A stretch of DNA of 36,981 bases from a virus. The first letter of the stretch is position 1. Each line of letters begins with the position of its first letter. A program made the position numbers and the translations under genes. Under the pieces are notes generated by a model. The model was not told the DNA's origin. It was given only the letters and a program-made list of their open reading frames with translations, and did no database searches. Where the stretch lies: IMG/VR virus record IMGVR_UViG_3300046454_000464, positions 1 through 36,981 of that record; one strand, written 5' to 3'. This document shows positions 1,456 through 14,572 of this stretch, one piece after another.

Positions 1456-2252
1456 GGCATCCTCGAGAGTTCGATGTTGGCGCTGAAGAGGGTCGAGAAG
1501 TCGCGCTGCGTCTGGACGCGGCCGCCCTTGGCGTAGACCTCGAAGAAGTTGCCGTCCGCGTCCACCAGCAGGAACGAGCCGGCAGCAGACTGCATCGTCA
1601 GGAGCTTGGTGCGCAGCGCCGTCTGGACCGATGGCCAGGGGAGCGTGAAGTCGGCGCCCGGGTCTCCGAGGTCGGCGAGCACGACCGCGCCCGACGGCAT
1701 CGGCGTCTCGAGGCGATTCCGGAACGGGGCATAGATTCCGCCCGGCCCGTGGACGTAGCCGAGATCGGTCGGATTGCCGACCCAGAGGTGGCCGACCGTG
1801 AAGAAATCACTCGGGTTCACGAACTCGAACCGCCAGTAGCGATGCGAGACCGACGCGATCACCGCTCCGATGTCGCGCACGGACGGGGCCACGATGGGCC
1901 CCGAGAGGGCGGACTGGAGCGTCCATGCACCCGGCGGGTAGCCGGAGGCGGACGCTGCCGAGTAGACGTTCAGCCCGGTGATGGACGAGCCGGCCGCGAG
2001 CCGGAGCCCAAGGATCGCCACCGCCGTCACCGTCTTGTTTGCGCTGAATGCGAGGTCATACTCGACCGTCCCCAGCCCGCCCGGGCCCTTCCAGAGCGTG
2101 TAGCGGTCCGAAGTGAGGGCGTTGGACATGGCGTAGGGCGAGATCTCGGCGAGGGCTGGCGCGCCGCCTCCGGTGCCGTTCTTCAGGGTCGCCGCCTCGA
2201 CGAGGTTGGCGCTCGCCCCGACGCTCGTGAGCCCGATCAGCGTGTTGCCCAT
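1452..2252 (-). CDS. Distal tail protein candidate (Dit-like position)
   Basis: A 266-aa protein whose ATG overlaps the tape measure stop by one base (TGATG). It has a jelly-roll/discoidin-like look in the middle (residues about 60-160: alternating hydrophobic strands, then RYWRFEFVNPSD) and a more compact C-terminal part ending in TLFSANIELSRMP. The place directly after the tape measure is where Dit-type baseplate hub proteins are encoded. The function is inferred mainly from position; the family is not recognised with certainty. Confidence 0.75.
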   Translation of the reverse strand: MGNTLIGLTSVGASANLVEAATLKNGTGGGAPALAEISPYAMSNALTSDRYTLWKGPGGLGTVEYDLAFSANKTVTAVAILGLRLAAGSSITGLNVYSAASASGYPPGAWTLQSALSGPIVAPSVRDIGAVIASVSHRYWRFEFVNPSDFFTVGHLWVGNPTDLGYVHGPGGIYAPFRNRLETPMPSGAVVLADLGDPGADFTLPWPSVQTALRTKLLTMQSAAGSFLLVDADGNFFEVYAKGGRVQTQRDFSTLFSANIELSRMP

Positions 2253-3823
2253 CAGCTCACCGCCGCGATCTCGGAGAGCCGCGAGTTGGCGCTCCGCATC
2301 TGCCCGCGCGGGTCGATCAGCGAGGAGAGGACGTCCTTCGCCGAGATCGTCTGGATGATGTAGGTGTTCCCGCCGCCGCCGGAGGTCGAGTTCGCGCCTG
2401 GCACGCCAACGGGCCCGCCGCCGCCCGGGAGAGCGCCGCCTGCGACTGCGAAGAACGGATTCCCCGTCACGCTCGAGAGCACGATGCCGAGGATCTTCAG
2501 GAACGCTCGCGTCACCGCGGCTGCGACGATCTCTCCGATCGCCTGCAGGATGCCGTCCCGGATGCCATCGAAGATGGTGACCATGGCGGTCCGGAACGTC
2601 TGCGCCCGGTTCGTCAGGTTCATGAACACGCCGAGGATGCTGTTCGAGAGCGACTGGCCGATCGTGTTGAACGCCTGGACGATGTCTCCGGCGACCCGAA
2701 GCATCAGTTCGCGGAAGGTCATCAGGTGCTCTTTCGCCTTGTCCGCCATCGGGCCGATCTGCATCATCAGCTGCCCGGGGCCCTGCCCGAGCGTGCCCTG
2801 GTTCGTGCCCCAGGTGCTGCCGCGGTTCTGCCAGCGGAGCGTGGCGCCGAGGTCGCCTGAGCTGGCCCCACCCGTGCCCCCCGCATCGCCCTGCCCGACG
2901 TTGGTGAAGAGCGCCGCGAATGCCTTCGCCGCCTTGATGTCGGCGTCCGCCTTCACCACCGCGGCGGCCATGGCCATGGCGTCCTGCTTGACCCGGTCCA
3001 TCGCCTCGTGCGACTTGGAGCCGGCGAAGGCGTTGTTGAACTTCTCGCTCAGGGCATCGAGCGTGTCGTTCAGGAGAGAGACGGTCGGCACCAGCAGTGC
3101 TACCCGGATGCGGATGGCCTCGACCACCTCGAAGAACTTGAGCATCAGAGGCACGATGAACGAGGCGAGCTGGAGCTTCATCGCCTCCATGGAGGCATTC
3201 AGCTGGTCGATCCGCTCGTGGAGCTGCAGGAACTTCTGCAACTGCGAGTCGCTCATCACGACGCCGAGATGCACCATCTCGTCCCGGAATGCGAGCAGCG
3301 CCTTCGAACCCTGCGAGAGGACGGCCACGAACCCGGAGCCGCCGCGACCGAAGGCGGCCGTCGCGAGCGCCGAGCGCTCGATCCCGGTCTTCGCCTTCTC
3401 CATGGCGTCGGCCACCTGCAGCATCGCGCCCCAGGTGTCCCTCGCCGTGATGTTGTGGGCCGCCAGCGCCGCCTTGTTGTTCTCGACCCCGACCGCGAGG
3501 CGCCGGAAGGCGAGGCCGACCTCTTCGGCGGAGCCGCCGGCATTCACGACCGCCCGCTGCATCGCCTGGATGTTGACCGTCGAGACGCCCGAGACATTGG
3601 ACACGTTCAGCACCTGCCGGGCAGTCTCGGAGTAGTGCTTCGCCAGTTCGGCGCCGGCGAGAGCGAGCGTGCCCATCCCGGCGGCCGCGGCGAGGGCGAT
3701 GCCGCCCGTGCCGCCGAACTGGGCGAGGGTTGCGTTCAGGCCGGACGCCTCTTTCGAGACGTTCGCCATGACCGCGGTCGCCTGGTCCTTCGCCTGGATC
3801 AGGATCTCGATGACGTTCGCCAC
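2252..3823 (-). CDS. Tail tape measure protein
   Basis: A 523-aa protein that sets tail length and is ejected with DNA. The start is a GTG at 3823 with a good GGGAGG site 7 nt upstream. Residues 1-25 (EILIQAKDQATAVMANV) are typical of tape measure N-termini. Hydrophobic Ala/Gly-rich segments lie near residues 40-62 and 430-470, with long helical stretches between them. The C-terminus carries Gly/Pro-rich linkers. It follows the tail chaperone pair, the usual order. At about 0.15 nm per residue the tail would be near 80 nm, short for a siphovirus. The protein is compact compared with typical tape measures of 600-1500 aa. Confidence 0.88.
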   Translation of the reverse strand: MANVIEILIQAKDQATAVMANVSKEASGLNATLAQFGGTGGIALAAAAGMGTLALAGAELAKHYSETARQVLNVSNVSGVSTVNIQAMQRAVVNAGGSAEEVGLAFRRLAVGVENNKAALAAHNITARDTWGAMLQVADAMEKAKTGIERSALATAAFGRGGSGFVAVLSQGSKALLAFRDEMVHLGVVMSDSQLQKFLQLHERIDQLNASMEAMKLQLASFIVPLMLKFFEVVEAIRIRVALLVPTVSLLNDTLDALSEKFNNAFAGSKSHEAMDRVKQDAMAMAAAVVKADADIKAAKAFAALFTNVGQGDAGGTGGASSGDLGATLRWQNRGSTWGTNQGTLGQGPGQLMMQIGPMADKAKEHLMTFRELMLRVAGDIVQAFNTIGQSLSNSILGVFMNLTNRAQTFRTAMVTIFDGIRDGILQAIGEIVAAAVTRAFLKILGIVLSSVTGNPFFAVAGGALPGGGGPVGVPGANSTSGGGGNTYIIQTISAKDVLSSLIDPRGQMRSANSRLSEIAAVS

Positions 3824-3827
3824 CCGA

Positions 3828-4097
3828 CTACCTCCCGACCTCGCCCACCCCGAGGAGCGCGATCACGCGCCCCACGCCCATTGGATCCTTGTCGCCGTCC
3901 ATCGACCGCAGGAGCTCCTCCACCTGGTGCTGCCGGAGCCTTCGGCGCGCCCTCAACACCTCGCGCGCGAGCTGGTACGCCTTGAATCTGGAGAGCGCCT
4001 CCAGGCCGGGGAGCACCTCGTGCGGCAACCTCGGCAGCCTGGCGATCTCCCAGAGCTCGTCGGCGAAGGCCGCCGCCCGCTGTCCCCCATATCCGTC
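3828..4097 (-). CDS. Tail assembly chaperone, T-like part read after a frameshift
   Basis: This open frame overlaps the end region of the preceding G-like gene and ends just before the tape measure. It encodes about 89 aa (DGYGGQRAAAFADELWEIAR onward), helical and charged, with clear coding character upstream of any ATG, GTG or TTG in its frame. The first usable codon is a TTG at 4028, which would cut the protein to 66 aa and lose the DELWEIARLP segment. The frame is +1 (or -2) relative to the upstream gene. Lambda-type G/GT chaperones are made by ribosomal frameshifting just here. The given end marks the upstream stop; the shift site is not identified. Confidence 0.65.
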   Translation of the reverse strand, partial: DGYGGQRAAAFADELWEIARLPRLPHEVLPGLEALSRFKAYQLAREVLRARRRLRQHQVEELLRSMDGDKDPMGVGRVIALLGVGEVGR

Positions 4098-4596
4098 ACT
4101 CCGGAGCCACGCCGCGAAACGTCTCGGCCGACGCCGTTGCCGCCTCCGCCGGCGTGGCTGGGGCGGTCGCTGCGGGCGCCGGCTTCTTCGAGAAGCCCGA
4201 GAAGTCCATGATCTCGGCGATCAGGGCGATCTGGTTGTCGCTGTGGAGGTTCCGCCACGGCGCCTTCCCCGCCTCGGGCGGCGTCTCGAACGTGAAGATG
4301 GGGTCGAGCACCGCGAGCGCCACGATCTTCCGCTGGGGCGCCTCCTGCTCGAGCAGGGTCTGGCGCATCGCCTCGAAGCTCTTCTCCGGCGTCGCCGTCC
4401 CCGAGAGGTCCGGGACCGCCGCCTGGTTCAACTCCGGCACTCCCTCCATGGCCGTGATGAGGTCGATCGGGGGAACGGTCCGGATCTGCACGGTCAGCAC
4501 CTTCCCGCCCGCCCCCGGGCGCGGGAGGTCGAAGAGCTTCGTCTCGGGCGCGGCGAAGTCGCTCGCCGGGCTCGTCTTGCCATCCGTGGCCGACAT
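4096..4596 (-). CDS. Tail assembly chaperone, G-like
   Basis: A 166-aa protein between the major tail tube gene and the tape measure, the place of lambda gpG. It starts with an acidic, Ser/Ala-rich region, has a folded core (about residues 35-130) and ends in an Ala/Pro-rich tail (APAATAPATPAEAATAS), a common linker before the frameshift to the T part. It is expected to bind the tape measure protein during tail assembly and not to remain in the virion. Recognition is by position, length and the overlapping downstream frame, not by a motif. Confidence 0.75.
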   Translation of the reverse strand: MSATDGKTSPASDFAAPETKLFDLPRPGAGGKVLTVQIRTVPPIDLITAMEGVPELNQAAVPDLSGTATPEKSFEAMRQTLLEQEAPQRKIVALAVLDPIFTFETPPEAGKAPWRNLHSDNQIALIAEIMDFSGFSKKPAPAATAPATPAEAATASAETFRGVAPE

Positions 4597-4605
4597 GCTG
4601 CCCTC

Positions 4606-5595
4606 CTAGGTGGTGATGGTGGCCTGAATGTTCTTGATCGCCGGCACACAGCCGTGGCTGCCACCGGAGACGTTCTCGATCGACTCCAGCTCGACGTCCT
4701 CGTAGAGGATGCCGAACCCGTTGACGTCGCTCTTCGCCTTCTTCACCACGGCGCTGTCGATCTTGAAATCCAGCTCATAGTTCGAATCGCGCACGAGGTT
4801 GAGGATCGGCGTCCGGAGCGTGCCCGCGATGTAGTCGTCCATCGCCGACTTGGTGCGGAACTCCTTGTTGACCTTGATGGTGGCCTTGGAGACGCCGGTC
4901 CGGATGGGCTCCAGGATGTAATAGCTGGAGCAGTCGAAGCGGCTGTCGTCGAGTCCCGCCTCGATCGTGTATTCGAAATGCTTGATGACGATGTCCGAGG
5001 CGGCGTCCGTCGCGCTGCCATCGGTCATGCTCACGCCGTGCGAGGTGAGGGCGAGGATCGGCGCCTGGGCCGAGAGCGCGCCGGTCGGGGTCTGGTTCGT
5101 CTGCATCTTCTGCCCGACAAAGTCGATCTTGACCTTGACGATTCCGCCAGCGTCGCCGGAGACGGTTATCATCTTGACCTTGGCGCCGAGGACGCGCTGG
5201 CACTTACTCGAGGGGATGTTGCCCTCGATCAGTTCCAGCGTGAACGAGTTGTAGAACTCCTTCTCGGTCGCCCACGTGTGCGTGTAAGGATTGGCGCCCG
5301 TGTCCACGCCGCCGTTCGAGCCATAGGTCGCGGTGCCCATCACACCGTCCCAGAACATCATCAGCTCGTTGTAGGTCATGTAGGCTTCAACCGAGCCGAT
5401 GCACTTCTCCGCCACGTTGATGATGCCGCGCTGGATGATCGCGCCCGTGAGCGTCGCATCCGGCACCTGCGTCACCACCTGCTCGAAGTTCTGGCTCAGG
5501 ATGCCGATGCGCTTGGTCGCAGCCGCAACGGTGGCCCACGTGACCTCGCGGCCCCACTGCAGGTAGCTCTTGGCGCCAATCCCTGGCGATGCCAT
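4606..5595 (-). CDS. Major tail tube protein
   Basis: A 329-aa protein starting MASPGIGAKSYLQWGREVTW, a beginning common among siphophage tube proteins. It is rich in beta strands, with a long central immunoglobulin-like or loop region (residues about 150-210) and no membrane segment. It lies between the tail terminator and the chaperone pair, matching the standard head-to-tail order. It should polymerise into hexameric rings around the tape measure. It is longer than the lambda gpV type (about 250 aa), so extra surface loops or a C-terminal domain are likely. Confidence 0.85.
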   Translation of the reverse strand: MASPGIGAKSYLQWGREVTWATVAAATKRIGILSQNFEQVVTQVPDATLTGAIIQRGIINVAEKCIGSVEAYMTYNELMMFWDGVMGTATYGSNGGVDTGANPYTHTWATEKEFYNSFTLELIEGNIPSSKCQRVLGAKVKMITVSGDAGGIVKVKIDFVGQKMQTNQTPTGALSAQAPILALTSHGVSMTDGSATDAASDIVIKHFEYTIEAGLDDSRFDCSSYYILEPIRTGVSKATIKVNKEFRTKSAMDDYIAGTLRTPILNLVRDSNYELDFKIDSAVVKKAKSDVNGFGILYEDVELESIENVSGGSHGCVPAIKNIQATITT

Positions 5596-10530: not shown

Positions 10531-10892
10531 GGCAGGAGCTTCTCCACGCGCTCACAGACAGACTCGTTCGCCTCTACCATCTTCGCCTGCGAGATATATC
10601 GGGATGTGGCGGCGTCGTAGAGCGGGGCCAGCAGGAAGTGCGTGGCCTCGTGGCGAGCGGTCCATTTGATCTCCGCCACCGTTGGTTTGTTCTGCCATGT
10701 CCGGCTCATCCGGATAGCCGCGCCACGGCTCTCCTCACCGGATGCGAAACTCGCTTCGGGATGCCGATCCCCCTCGTGCAGGACGTGCAGCCGCCATTCG
10801 GTGATGCCCCAGCGCTTGACGCAGCGCTCGACCTCGCGCTTGAAGATCGCGAAATGGGCGGCCGTCGTCCGGTAGGTCTTCGCTCGGCTCAC
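10527..10892 (-). CDS. Putative zinc metalloprotease-like protein (HEATH motif)
   Basis: A 121-aa protein with an HExxH motif, ARHEATHFLLAPL, on a predicted helix at about residues 80-92, followed downstream by acidic residues (KMVEANESVCERVEKLL) that could supply the third ligand. The upstream TVAEIKWT matches the edge strand that precedes the helix in minimal metzincin-like folds. Small phage proteins with this architecture occur near head genes, and their substrate is unknown. It overlaps the portal stop (ATGA). Confidence 0.72.
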   Translation of the reverse strand: MSRAKTYRTTAAHFAIFKREVERCVKRWGITEWRLHVLHEGDRHPEASFASGEESRGAAIRMSRTWQNKPTVAEIKWTARHEATHFLLAPLYDAATSRYISQAKMVEANESVCERVEKLLP

Positions 10893-13114
10893 AGCACCCC
10901 CGCCAGCCGGTTCGTCGGCTTCGCGTGCCCGTTCTTGCTCGGGAAGTAGACCTCGAGCCCGCGGCGCCGCATGGCGCGCTCCGAGACGACCGGGATCGCA
11001 ACACAGCGGCAGTTGATGACGTTCTCGGGCGAGCCGTTCGGGTCACCCGGGTATTCGAGCGTCTCACCGTCCACGTCGAAGCCGTCGTTGATGCCGGCGA
11101 CCTCGCCGTCCGCATCGGCATGCGCCGGGCGCACCGCCTCATCCCTCGCGGAGAGCCATTCCAGTTCCTCGACGTCGCCCGATTGCCGCCACGCCTCGAC
11201 GCCGGCGAAGTTGTAAGCCGAGAGCGTCTCGGTGCGCGCGATCGTCAGCGCGCGGCCCTGCTCGGCCTCGTCCAGCTTCTCGGCCACGCGCGCGGTCAGT
11301 TGCGAGAGCGATTCGTTAAGCGTCACGCCCTCCGCCAGCGTCGCCCGCACTTCCTGCATGAGCGTATTCAGCGAGCCATCCAGCCCGTAGGACTCGCGGA
11401 CCTTGATGAACTGCTGGACGTTCTGCGTCTTCAGGTTGACTTCAAGCTCGAGCGCGATCTCGCGCGCAGCCTCCGCCCCGCGCTCGGCGATCAGGCTCTC
11501 GTAGATGGCGTGGATGTTCGCCTCGTCGTCCGGCTCGGGGGCGAACAGTTCCTCGAGGTCGATCGTGCGCTTGCCCTTCAGCGCCCGGAGCGCTCCCGCC
11601 TCGAGCCGCGAGAGGAGCTTCTTCTTCCGGTCGCGGATCAGCCCCACGAACGCCGCGGCGAACTTCCGCTCGTAGCGCTTCATCAGCTTGTCCTGCTTCC
11701 GCCAGCGCATGGTCCGCTCGGGCGTGTCGATCAGACGCTTGGCCTTCGAGCCCGGCTCGGGCGCTGGCTTCGTGTCGGCCGGCTTGGTCTTCGCGCCGTC
11801 GCCGGTCACCTCGCCGGTCTGGTCCTGCTGCCCGAACGGCGCCGCCGTCTTCTGCTCGGCCAACTCATCCGCGCTCGGGTCTTCGATCCGCGGCTGGCCC
11901 GAGAGCGTGCGGATCTCGTTCACCGTGAACACCGGCCGCCCGGTCAGCGCCACGATCTGCTGCGCCGAGTTCAGGAGCGGCTGGTTCAACGCCGGCACGT
12001 TCGCGAGGTCCGTCCGGAACCGGATGTTGTCCTCGTTGAACATCGGCCCCAGCTTCTCGGTCAGGAGGGCGTCGCGCATCTCCAGCTCGGTCCGGAGGTT
12101 CTGCCAGTAGCCGCGCTCTTCGGCCTGCGCCAGGTCGCCCGTGCGGCCGGTCCCGCTCGAGGTCTCGCGGATGTTGACGAGCCACGGCGGCACCCCCAGC
12201 GCGCGGCAGATGTCGGCATCCGCGATGCGCATGTTCTCGACGAACTGAAGCTCGGACATCGTCAGCCCCATCTTCTCGAAGTGCAGCATGTCGAGGATCG
12301 TCGGGACGTCGAACTTCTGGCGCATGAGCTTCAGCTGCTCGCCCACGGCCTTCTTCTCCTCCGCGGTCATCACGACCGGCACGCCGTTCGCCGGCTGCGG
12401 CACCGAGAAGTAGCCCGCGCCCACGCCACCGGCGCGGATCACCTTCTGGAAGAGCCGCATCAGGTCGTAGCGCGTCTCGTACTGGAGCTGGATCGAGTCG
12501 AGCGGCGACACACCGATCGGCTCGTCCTCGGGCTGGTAGTCGTGCCAGGGGATCACGTTCTCGGCCGGGATCGCGACGGCCATCGAGCCGAAGAGTCCGG
12601 AAGAGCCGCCGCCCGTGCTGCCGCCGCGGCTGAAGATGTAGGCCGCCGGCATCCGGCGCTCGCCCGGGATCACGCGCACCAGGTGGCTCGGCATGACCCA
12701 CAGTTCCTTCGGCACCTTAAAGCCGAACGTCTCCGCGACCATGTAGGCGTTGCCGTGGGTCAGGAAGTTGGCGTGGAAGTCGCGGATCACCTCGCGCCCG
12801 GTCTGGCGAGGGTTCCCGCCATGCCAGACGTCCATGATGTTGCCCTTGTCGCGCTTGACCGGCTCCCAGCCCGTCGAGGTCTCCTTCTCGATCACCACCG
12901 GCTGGGCGGCCATGTCGTTCGACTTCCGGAGGATGCAGGCGCGGATCGTGGAGACGAGCCGCACCGCCTTGGCGTGGTCCCAGATGATCGGGTCGAGGTA
13001 GTAGGGCTTCCCGATCAGCGTCGGCCGGAAGTTCGGCATGACGCCGCCGTCCGTCGACTTGGGGAATCCGAACAGCGTGCCGATGGCGGAGGAGAGGCGG
13101 GAGCCGAGGTTCAC
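10889..13114 (-). CDS. Portal protein fused to MuF-like head morphogenesis domain
   Basis: A 741-aa protein. GTG at 13114 overlaps the previous stop (GTGA). Residues about 40-430 are an HK97-type portal (PF04860 family): KAVRLVSTIRACILRKSNDM, the stretch FHANFLTHGNAYMVAETFGF, and ADICRALGVPPWLVNIRETS. A Pro/Thr/Lys-rich linker (about 450-490) follows. Residues about 490-741 look like phage Mu protein F: helical, then RTETLSAYNFAGVEAW and the closing NVINCRCVAIPV, whose CRC motif is diagnostic. The portal forms the dodecameric DNA gate; MuF domains act in head maturation or are ejected. Two proteins usually encoded separately are joined here. Confidence 0.93.
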   Translation of the reverse strand: MNLGSRLSSAIGTLFGFPKSTDGGVMPNFRPTLIGKPYYLDPIIWDHAKAVRLVSTIRACILRKSNDMAAQPVVIEKETSTGWEPVKRDKGNIMDVWHGGNPRQTGREVIRDFHANFLTHGNAYMVAETFGFKVPKELWVMPSHLVRVIPGERRMPAAYIFSRGGSTGGGSSGLFGSMAVAIPAENVIPWHDYQPEDEPIGVSPLDSIQLQYETRYDLMRLFQKVIRAGGVGAGYFSVPQPANGVPVVMTAEEKKAVGEQLKLMRQKFDVPTILDMLHFEKMGLTMSELQFVENMRIADADICRALGVPPWLVNIRETSSGTGRTGDLAQAEERGYWQNLRTELEMRDALLTEKLGPMFNEDNIRFRTDLANVPALNQPLLNSAQQIVALTGRPVFTVNEIRTLSGQPRIEDPSADELAEQKTAAPFGQQDQTGEVTGDGAKTKPADTKPAPEPGSKAKRLIDTPERTMRWRKQDKLMKRYERKFAAAFVGLIRDRKKKLLSRLEAGALRALKGKRTIDLEELFAPEPDDEANIHAIYESLIAERGAEAAREIALELEVNLKTQNVQQFIKVRESYGLDGSLNTLMQEVRATLAEGVTLNESLSQLTARVAEKLDEAEQGRALTIARTETLSAYNFAGVEAWRQSGDVEELEWLSARDEAVRPAHADADGEVAGINDGFDVDGETLEYPGDPNGSPENVINCRCVAIPVVSERAMRRRGLEVYFPSKNGHAKPTNRLAGVL

Positions 13115-14076
13115 TCATCCCCTCCGCGCTGGACTTCGTAGGCGCGGCCCATGGCGGCGACGAACGCCTCCGGGGCGCTGCCCGGGACGAGGCGCGGCAG
13201 GCGCGGGGCGAAGGTGGCGCGCTTCAGCGCCGCTGCCCACTCCCGCGGACCGGCGTCCTGCGGCACCAGCTCGGTCGCGACCGCGGCATGAACGCCTACG
13301 TCGGTCGCCACGACCGGTTTCCCCATGGCTGCGGCCTCGGCGGCCACCAGCCCGAAACTCTCATGCCGCGAGGGGCAGGCGACCACGTCAGCACTCCGGA
13401 GCCAGCCCATAGCGCCGCGGTGGTCGGTCGGCGGGACGAAGATGGCGTTCCCATTGACGAGCGACCGGAGCCCCCGCTCCTGCGAGCCCGCGCCGATGAA
13501 GTAGAACGTCGCGTCCTCGTGGTAGCGCGACGCGAGGGCGATCCGGTCGAAGCCCTTTTGGCCCTCGAGCCGGCCGACACATACGACGCGCGATGGGCCC
13601 GTGGGGCAGCCAAGATCCTGATAGCCCGTCACCACCGGGTTCGGGACTACCTCGACATGCCGACCGCCAGCGATCCGCGAGACCTCCGCGGCATGCCCCT
13701 CGCTCGGCGAGAGGATGCGGTCGCAGTCCTCGAGCACAGCCACCGCCAGCGGCAGGCGGCGGAGGCGCTCGGGGGGCGAGAGATGCTCATGGATGATGAG
13801 CGGCACATTCCAGTGGTGCGAGAGGTAATGCCCGGCGAGCCCGGCTGGCCACGCGCCGTAGGCATGAACTACCTCCGCCCAAGCCCCGACCCTGTGCGAC
13901 TTGGGTCCGCGGTAGAACGCGGCCTGCAGCATGGCACAGGCAACCACCCACCAGCGCGGGCCGGCCGTGACGGTAAGCCGGAGCACCCGGACGTCGTGAC
14001 CGGCCGCGCGCAGTAGGCCCAGCTGCACATCCACGAAGCCGCCCGACCAGGGCGTCACCGCGAGCACGCGCTTCAC
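13111..14076 (-). CDS. GT4-type glycosyltransferase
   Basis: A 321-aa GT-B fold glycosyltransferase. GTG at 14076 overlaps the upstream TGA (GTGA). The N-terminal Rossmann half begins KRVLAVTPWSGGFVDVQLGL. The interdomain stretch VVPNPVV, then RVVCVGRLEGQKGFDRIALA, and the nucleotide-sugar site SRHESFGLVAAEAAAMGKPV (with the ExxxxxxxE spacing of retaining GT4 enzymes) are clear. The gene lies in the head cassette between small proteins downstream of terminase and the portal. The sugar donor and acceptor are unknown; possible targets are virion proteins, DNA or host surface glycans. Family length is normally 350-400 aa, so it is slightly short. Confidence 0.88.
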   Translation of the reverse strand: MKRVLAVTPWSGGFVDVQLGLLRAAGHDVRVLRLTVTAGPRWWVVACAMLQAAFYRGPKSHRVGAWAEVVHAYGAWPAGLAGHYLSHHWNVPLIIHEHLSPPERLRRLPLAVAVLEDCDRILSPSEGHAAEVSRIAGGRHVEVVPNPVVTGYQDLGCPTGPSRVVCVGRLEGQKGFDRIALASRYHEDATFYFIGAGSQERGLRSLVNGNAIFVPPTDHRGAMGWLRSADVVACPSRHESFGLVAAEAAAMGKPVVATDVGVHAAVATELVPQDAGPREWAAALKRATFAPRLPRLVPGSAPEAFVAAMGRAYEVQRGGDE

Positions 14077-14372
14077 TCGTCGCCCCGTTTCACGTGGAAC
14101 GCGATGACGAGCGCCCGGACGCAGAGGAGCGTATCGGGCTCGGGGCAGGTCGGCGCCAGGGCCGCGGCATCCTCGGCCGACAGGCACGCGACTGGCTGGT
14201 CCCCGCAGACCATCAGCCGCACCGTGTCGGCGTCTGCCACCGCGATGGCCGCCGGCGCAGTCGCGCCCTTGTAGGACGAGCCGCAGCCGAACGCCGTGAG
14301 CGTCAGTGCGATGAGCACGACCATCGCCCAACTCATTGCGCAGGCGAGGATGGCATCCCCGATCCGGCTCAC
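14073..14372 (-). CDS. Membrane-anchored or lipoprotein-like exported protein, 99 aa
   Basis: A 99-aa protein with an N-terminal hydrophobic segment (SWAMVVLIALTLTAFGCGSS) ending in a Cys at residue 30. The -3 residue is Ala and -2 is Phe, so the lipobox is atypical and a plain signal anchor is also possible. The mature part holds four further Cys. It overlaps its neighbours by 4 bases at each end. Function unknown; it could act at the cell envelope together with the glycosyltransferase that follows. Confidence 0.7.
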   Translation of the reverse strand: MSRIGDAILACAMSWAMVVLIALTLTAFGCGSSYKGATAPAAIAVADADTVRLMVCGDQPVACLSAEDAAALAPTCPEPDTLLCVRALVIAFHVKRGDE

Positions 14373-14572
14373 GCGACCACCGTCCCGCTGCGCTCGTATT
14401 CATAGCGCGCCAGCCCGTCCGTTTCCTCGACCAGCCGGTAGTAGTCGCGCCGAAGCATCACCGCGCTCGGGAAGCTGATCGTCTCCGGCAGCTGCGTGGC
14501 CGCGGGAACGGCGATCTCGGCCCCATCCATCGGGCCGCGGTTGCAGCGAACGGTGCGGAGCATGACGCTCAC
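14369..14572 (-). CDS. Hypothetical protein, 67 aa
   Basis: GTG at 14572 overlaps the upstream TGA (GTGA). The protein begins VSVMLRTVRCNRGPMDGAEI; the 'GPxDG' type motif and short strands are similar to many small phage proteins of unknown function, including the product at 30133-30306 (HGGPLDGATL). The two may belong to one small family. It lies between a zinc-knuckle protein and the lipoprotein-like gene. Confidence 0.75.
   Translation of the reverse strand: MSVMLRTVRCNRGPMDGAEIAVPAATQLPETISFPSAVMLRRDYYRLVEETDGLARYEYERSGTVVA

Follow-up and report, generated by a model that had tools for sequence, protein, structure and literature searches.

Phage tail chaperones are made with shifts of several kinds. 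In lambda, two products, G and GT, one an extension of the other, come from the pair of genes that precedes the tape measure gene, and the shift there, as in other chaperones of the -1 type, takes place on a slippery heptamer. All three types of shift, -1, -2 and +1, have been recorded for tail chaperones (PMC5009743), and those other than -1 in phage structural or tail genes include the +1 shift of a Listeria phage PSA tail gene at CCC_UGA, beside the stop codon, and the -2 shift of phage Mu. According to PMC10885494, no general motif has been identified for forward shifts. For the HF1-like haloviruses, TTT-CGC was put forward in 2020 as the site of a +1 shift (PMC7230728), and "an unusual +1 frameshift" was noted in the tail chaperone of Bacillus phage Moonbeam (PMC4299906). 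Outside the tailed viruses, mass spectrometry revealed a slip on UUU_C in PA-X of influenza A, where the site is UCC_UUU_CGU and the rationale given is the better pairing of Phe-tRNA (GAA) with UUC than with UUU (PMC3498833), and a +1 slip at UUU_CGN has been proposed in plant amalgaviruses (PMC5052127). Within the open-licence literature, and as far as these sources go, we found a UUU_CGN signal stated for PA-X, the amalgaviruses and the HF1-like haloviruses and no such statement for the Herelleviridae or for bacterial phages at large, which is not proof of absence. The kind of shift described below is thus known, if rarely recognised, having been proposed in HF1-like haloviruses, and the type of site is that of PA-X.

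The locus described here lies in IMG/VR virus record IMGVR_UViG_3300046454_000464, the whole of which (36,981 bases) we call the window. The minus strand carries the structural genes, in the order portal, major capsid, connector, tail tube, a G-like gene, a T-like frame and tape measure. The tail tube protein (4606..5595, minus strand; PF18906, E 9.5e-17, and phrog_290) is followed by the G-like open reading frame (4096..4596, minus strand; 166 aa, with homologs), which has an SD-like GGAGG before its ATG and ends in the stop codon TGA (4096..4098, minus strand). The T frame is open from stop to stop over 3828..4220 (minus strand), displaced by +1, or equally -2, relative to G, and terminates at TAG (3830-3828); the tape measure protein (2252..3823, minus strand; phrog_8462, E 7.8e-13) begins with a GTG 4 nt past that stop. 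Elsewhere in the window, a single 741-residue open reading frame (10889-13114) encodes a portal protein and, fused to it, a head morphogenesis domain of the Mu F-like type, and an open reading frame for a GT4-type glycosyltransferase (13111-14403) lies directly upstream of the portal gene, inside the structural cluster. No tRNA gene was found in the window. Since it carries a tyrosine recombinase (phage integrase, 20850-21737), the virus may be temperate.

The frame relation of the two genes, their conservation, the absence of starts and the uniqueness of one site, all observed below, lead us to infer a slippage, its direction and rate, and a chaperone function: G and GT are very probably the two tail assembly chaperones of an uncultivated tailed virus, GT being made by +1 slippage of Phe-tRNA from UUU to UUC. 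The putative shift site is ACG_TTT_CGC (4114..4122, minus strand), its three codons standing in the E, P and A sites. Most ribosomes would translate G (166 aa) through to the TGA, while a minority would stall with UUU (4119-4117) occupied by peptidyl-tRNA-Phe and CGC in a still vacant A site. That tRNA, whose anticodon is GAA, would then move one base forward, from UUU to UUC, gaining a Watson-Crick third pair, and the +1 frame would be read as GCG GCG TGG CTC (...SAETF-AAWLRSDGYGG...). The T-like part so added (3828..4115, minus strand; 95 codons from GCG) would yield a 255-residue GT fusion alongside the 166-residue G. As in lambda, the role of G would be to bind the tape measure protein, and that of the T part of GT to recruit tail tube subunits.

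Searches that used G or T as the query returned ten IMG/VR contigs in all, nine of which cover the junction; the tenth (L017, one contig with L028 and L042) starts at T residue 36, without the junction, and was not counted. The nine carry nine IMG metagenome numbers and give, together with the window, seven distinct junction sequences that are related to each other and not independent, one of them (L014) compared as DNA only. The sequence-only reading had placed T +1 out of frame relative to G, and this layout is kept, together with the TTT_CGC motif, in 9/9 junction-covering contigs. The window and the nine contigs share the pattern NNN_TTT_CGC_GNN_GTG_GCT_NNN_NNN_stop, with TTT beginning 21 nt ahead of the stop. 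That G and T are truly one frame, broken by an assembly or sequencing error, might be suspected of genes known from metagenome contigs only, but independent contigs share the same frame relation (the window and nine others, from nine metagenome numbers and in divergent sequence), and we reject this explanation as practically impossible. Between the window and the deepest members of the group, identity is 46-53% in the tube protein and down to 27-31% over parts of the tape measure protein; T, at 60-63% against 39-45% for G, is therefore a coding frame.

How the T frame is entered is constrained by its starts. The first ATG, GTG or TTG of the frame in the window is a TTG 30 codons past the shift site, behind the segment DELWEIARLP, and in L003 the frame has no start before codon 72; the earlier observation that this segment lacks a usable start is borne out. 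T could in principle be a short protein with its own initiation and no fusion, from that TTG at T codon 30 or from the GTG at codon 34 that the window shares with several relatives. Such initiation would leave the conserved N-terminal 30 residues (FA.WL...ELW.IA.LPRLPH) untranslated, would lack any start before codon 72 in L003, and would not account for a rare codon held in the overlap by the T frame, so that we regard it as very unlikely. The codon in question is GCT, which accounts for 25 of the window's 439 Ala codons; it and the neighbouring GTG are fixed in 7/7 junctions, just as W and L in the T frame demand, and the T frame is therefore read within a few bases after TTT, before the G stop.

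The same two codons bear on where the shift occurs. Elsewhere +1 shifts are driven by pausing at a stop codon, as at CCC_UGA in Listeria phage PSA (PMC5009743), and a shift at the G stop itself, as in release-factor-2 genes, could be imagined here; the region of that stop, CCGGAGTGAC, had been the second of two places suggested for the signal. It did not hold up: the type of stop varies among the junctions (TGA, TAG or TAA), the codon ahead of it is GAG, CAG or CCG, none of which re-pairs in the +1 frame, and the stop lies 21 nt downstream, past T-frame codons that are already constrained, including those for the invariant W and L. The chance that the shift takes place at the stop is accordingly negligible. 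The other suggested place, ACGTTTCGC, contains the one invariant and re-pairable site, the TTT of ACG_TTT_CGC at 4119-4117.

Several lines of evidence point to this TTT_C, with UUU in the zero frame followed by C and the +1 frame open across it, as a site conserved beyond codon usage. Across ten window genes Phe is encoded 118 times, three of them by TTT, and the 3659 codons of these genes include a single in-frame TTT_C, the one at this junction; in the bodies of seven G genes TTT is 1/43 Phe codons and TTT_C is found in 0/966 codons, yet all seven junctions have TTT_C. The codons TTT, CGC, GTG and GCT are identical in 21/21 junction pairs, whereas across the deep split the fraction of conserved G-body residues encoded by identical codons drops to 0.47-0.67. 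A scan of every zero-frame codon from the upstream stop of the T frame to the G stop, a stretch whose open part upstream is only 36 nt in L014, found TTT_C to be the sole codon able to re-pair in +1 in 7/7 junctions. The TTT could instead be kept by a conserved Phe of the T frame, the shift lying upstream, but the upstream T-frame residues are unconserved and no common re-pairable site exists there.

The sequence-only reading had left the shift as "+1 (or -2)". A -2 shift as in phage Mu, which yields the same frame and would give the junction ...ASAETFFAAWLR, has in its favour five halovirus records annotated with a "putative programmed translational -2 frameshift". No -2 re-pairing position is common to the seven junctions, however, isolated ones being present in L004, L012, L013 and L016 and none in the window, L003 or L014, and the -2 model gives the conservation of TTT no role; we consider it very unlikely, and only the +1 half of the earlier statement stands. 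Nor is a lambda-type -1 slippery heptamer (X_XXY_YYZ) the signal for T, as had been noted, T being in the +1 and not the -1 frame. Taken from sequence comparison, a required and conserved shift into the +1 frame is supported, and the first reading appears to have had the direction right and the place very nearly so.

As to what might promote slippage on TTT_C, CGC occupies the A site in 7/7 distinct junctions and is the commonest Arg codon in the window (126/239), so a hungry-codon pause is not evident. No downstream RNA structure stood out in the seven junctions (z -1.0 to 1.5), and no SD-like stimulator upstream was consistent across them.

Wider searches added little to this group of contigs. 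No match to G, T or tube was obtained by tblastn against 50,697 phage records, two scans of genome contigs found no relatives, a final scan of viral contigs gave no contig beyond those already found, and a 30-base nucleotide query gave chance matches only. One more distant contig, L047, was located via the gene downstream of the tape measure gene (32% identity); there (2457-3153) G ends at 3011, the T frame is again +1, and the overlap holds UCC_UUU_UCU, with UCU as the A-site codon. Because three GGG sites are also possible in the overlap, L047 offers weaker support for a UUU_C site. Its T part is about 8 residues shorter ahead of the EL motif, and its G matched itself only in the scan and nothing in the phage collection by tblastn. 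In a further contig, L037 (5024-5640; tube 25%), T is at -1 with an A run in the overlap, a lambda-like arrangement, and the direction of the shift therefore differs among distant relatives within the broad tail module.

The suggestion that G and T form a tail chaperone pair fares well on layout and position and finds no counterpart in a sequence family. Two overlapping open reading frames lie between the tail tube and tape measure genes, in the order tube-G-T-tape measure; against PHROG and Pfam neither G nor T matched a chaperone family or any other profile. We accordingly infer that they are chaperone-like from gene position and layout, and place them in no sequence family. The structure model of G (pLDDT 47.8) is poor for a fold search, in which the HK97 chaperone 2ob9 ranked 23rd with an E of 6.9, which is not significant; the model of T has a pLDDT of 68.0. 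A profile of G (4096-4596) matches the CFA/I fimbrial subunit CfaB, chain 3f85 (E 4e-4, about 60 residues), probably by chance.

The HF1-group haloviruses, the Hafunaviridae, resemble the window in gene position, in the +1 frame, in TTT_CGC near the G stop and in the rarity of the TTT codon. They are archaeal viruses, and no similarity was detectable when the profiles of their G and of the window G were compared. We found 53 halovirus records and read eight (HF2, HRTV-7, HRTV-14, HRTV-15, HRTV-22, HRTV-27, HCTV-15 and Serpecor1); TTT_CGC is at the end of G in 8/8, including HRTV-27, whose G is 31% identical to that of HF2, and HRTV-7 and HCTV-15 have identical codons at the junction. The -2 annotation stands in 5/8 of these records (L059, L060, L062, L064 and L065), though the overlap holds the +1 re-pairing TTT_CGC. 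Two of the five were scanned for -2 re-pairing sites: HRTV-27 has none and HRTV-15 has only two, far upstream.

The members of the Herelleviridae read here, phages of Firmicutes, likewise have T at +1 and TTT_C near the G stop; they differ from the window in that no protein match to it was found and in an A-site codon that varies. Among 564 Herelleviridae-type records found, 12 were read, mostly taken from a spread listing (L067-L078, Moonbeam and 11 others), and in 12/12 the T frame is +1 and the overlap contains TTT_C in frame. In the Moonbeam record (KM236246) the annotated slippage falls on the last T of TTT within CGA_TTT_CAA. The codon after TTT is CGN in 9/12, CAA in two (Moonbeam and fHSPT3) and CTG in one (LPhi1ADMT15). 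Other sites are also present in some overlaps: a GGG site in LPhi1ADMT15, AAA and GGG sites further upstream in fHSPT3, a second TTT_C in PSU4 and a -2 position beside TTT_CGC in WIL-1. TTT starts 9 nt (three codons) before the stop in 11/12 and 21 nt before it in LPhi1ADMT15. The T frame of 6/12 (WIL-1, CF7, EFP01, phiSA012, BE09 and EF24C-P2) becomes open only 17 nt short of where the G stop ends, and the shift is therefore pinned to a few codons. Listeria phage WIL-1 has ACG_TTT_CGC, exactly the site of the window, and CF7 and phiSA012 have TCC_TTT_CGT, the PA-X site in every letter. As background, ten Herelleviridae G bodies (last five codons excluded; EF24C-P2 and LPhi1ADMT15, having no annotated G gene, left out) contain TTT_C four times and TTT_CG 0 times in 1469 codons. 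Of ten Herelleviridae with gene tables, only Moonbeam has G and T joined; the records of phiSA012 and SAC12B call the T gene "RNA polymerase beta subunit", and that of EFP01 lists it as "putative RNA polymerase".

Beyond the tailed viruses, the window shares with PA-X a +1 Phe-tRNA slip on UUU_C, in the window's case a predicted one, and with both PA-X and the amalgaviruses an A site occupied by an Arg codon of the form CGN (PMC3498833, PMC5052127), although those are eukaryotic RNA viruses, with eukaryotic ribosomes and other genes. We think it probable that UUU_C, usually UUU_CGN, is a general +1 signal in tail chaperone genes of bacterial and archaeal tailed viruses, reached independently in at least three unrelated families (that of the window, the Hafunaviridae and the Herelleviridae), that it is the signal eukaryotic RNA viruses use, and that it works by a property of Phe-tRNA and the ribosome common to all domains, with no structured stimulator; current annotations would split many such genes in two, describe them as -2 shifts or misname them. 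For the window this would narrow the shift to a single codon, for which the tRNA offers a clear rationale; of wider value is that UUU_C recurs at tail chaperone junctions unrelated to one another. It would supply a rule for finding and annotating the second chaperone, namely to look in the gene preceding the tape measure gene for an in-frame TTT_C close to its end, with the second frame at +1, and one site recurring in unrelated tail genes across two domains and matching a eukaryotic viral site would make a common ribosomal basis testable.
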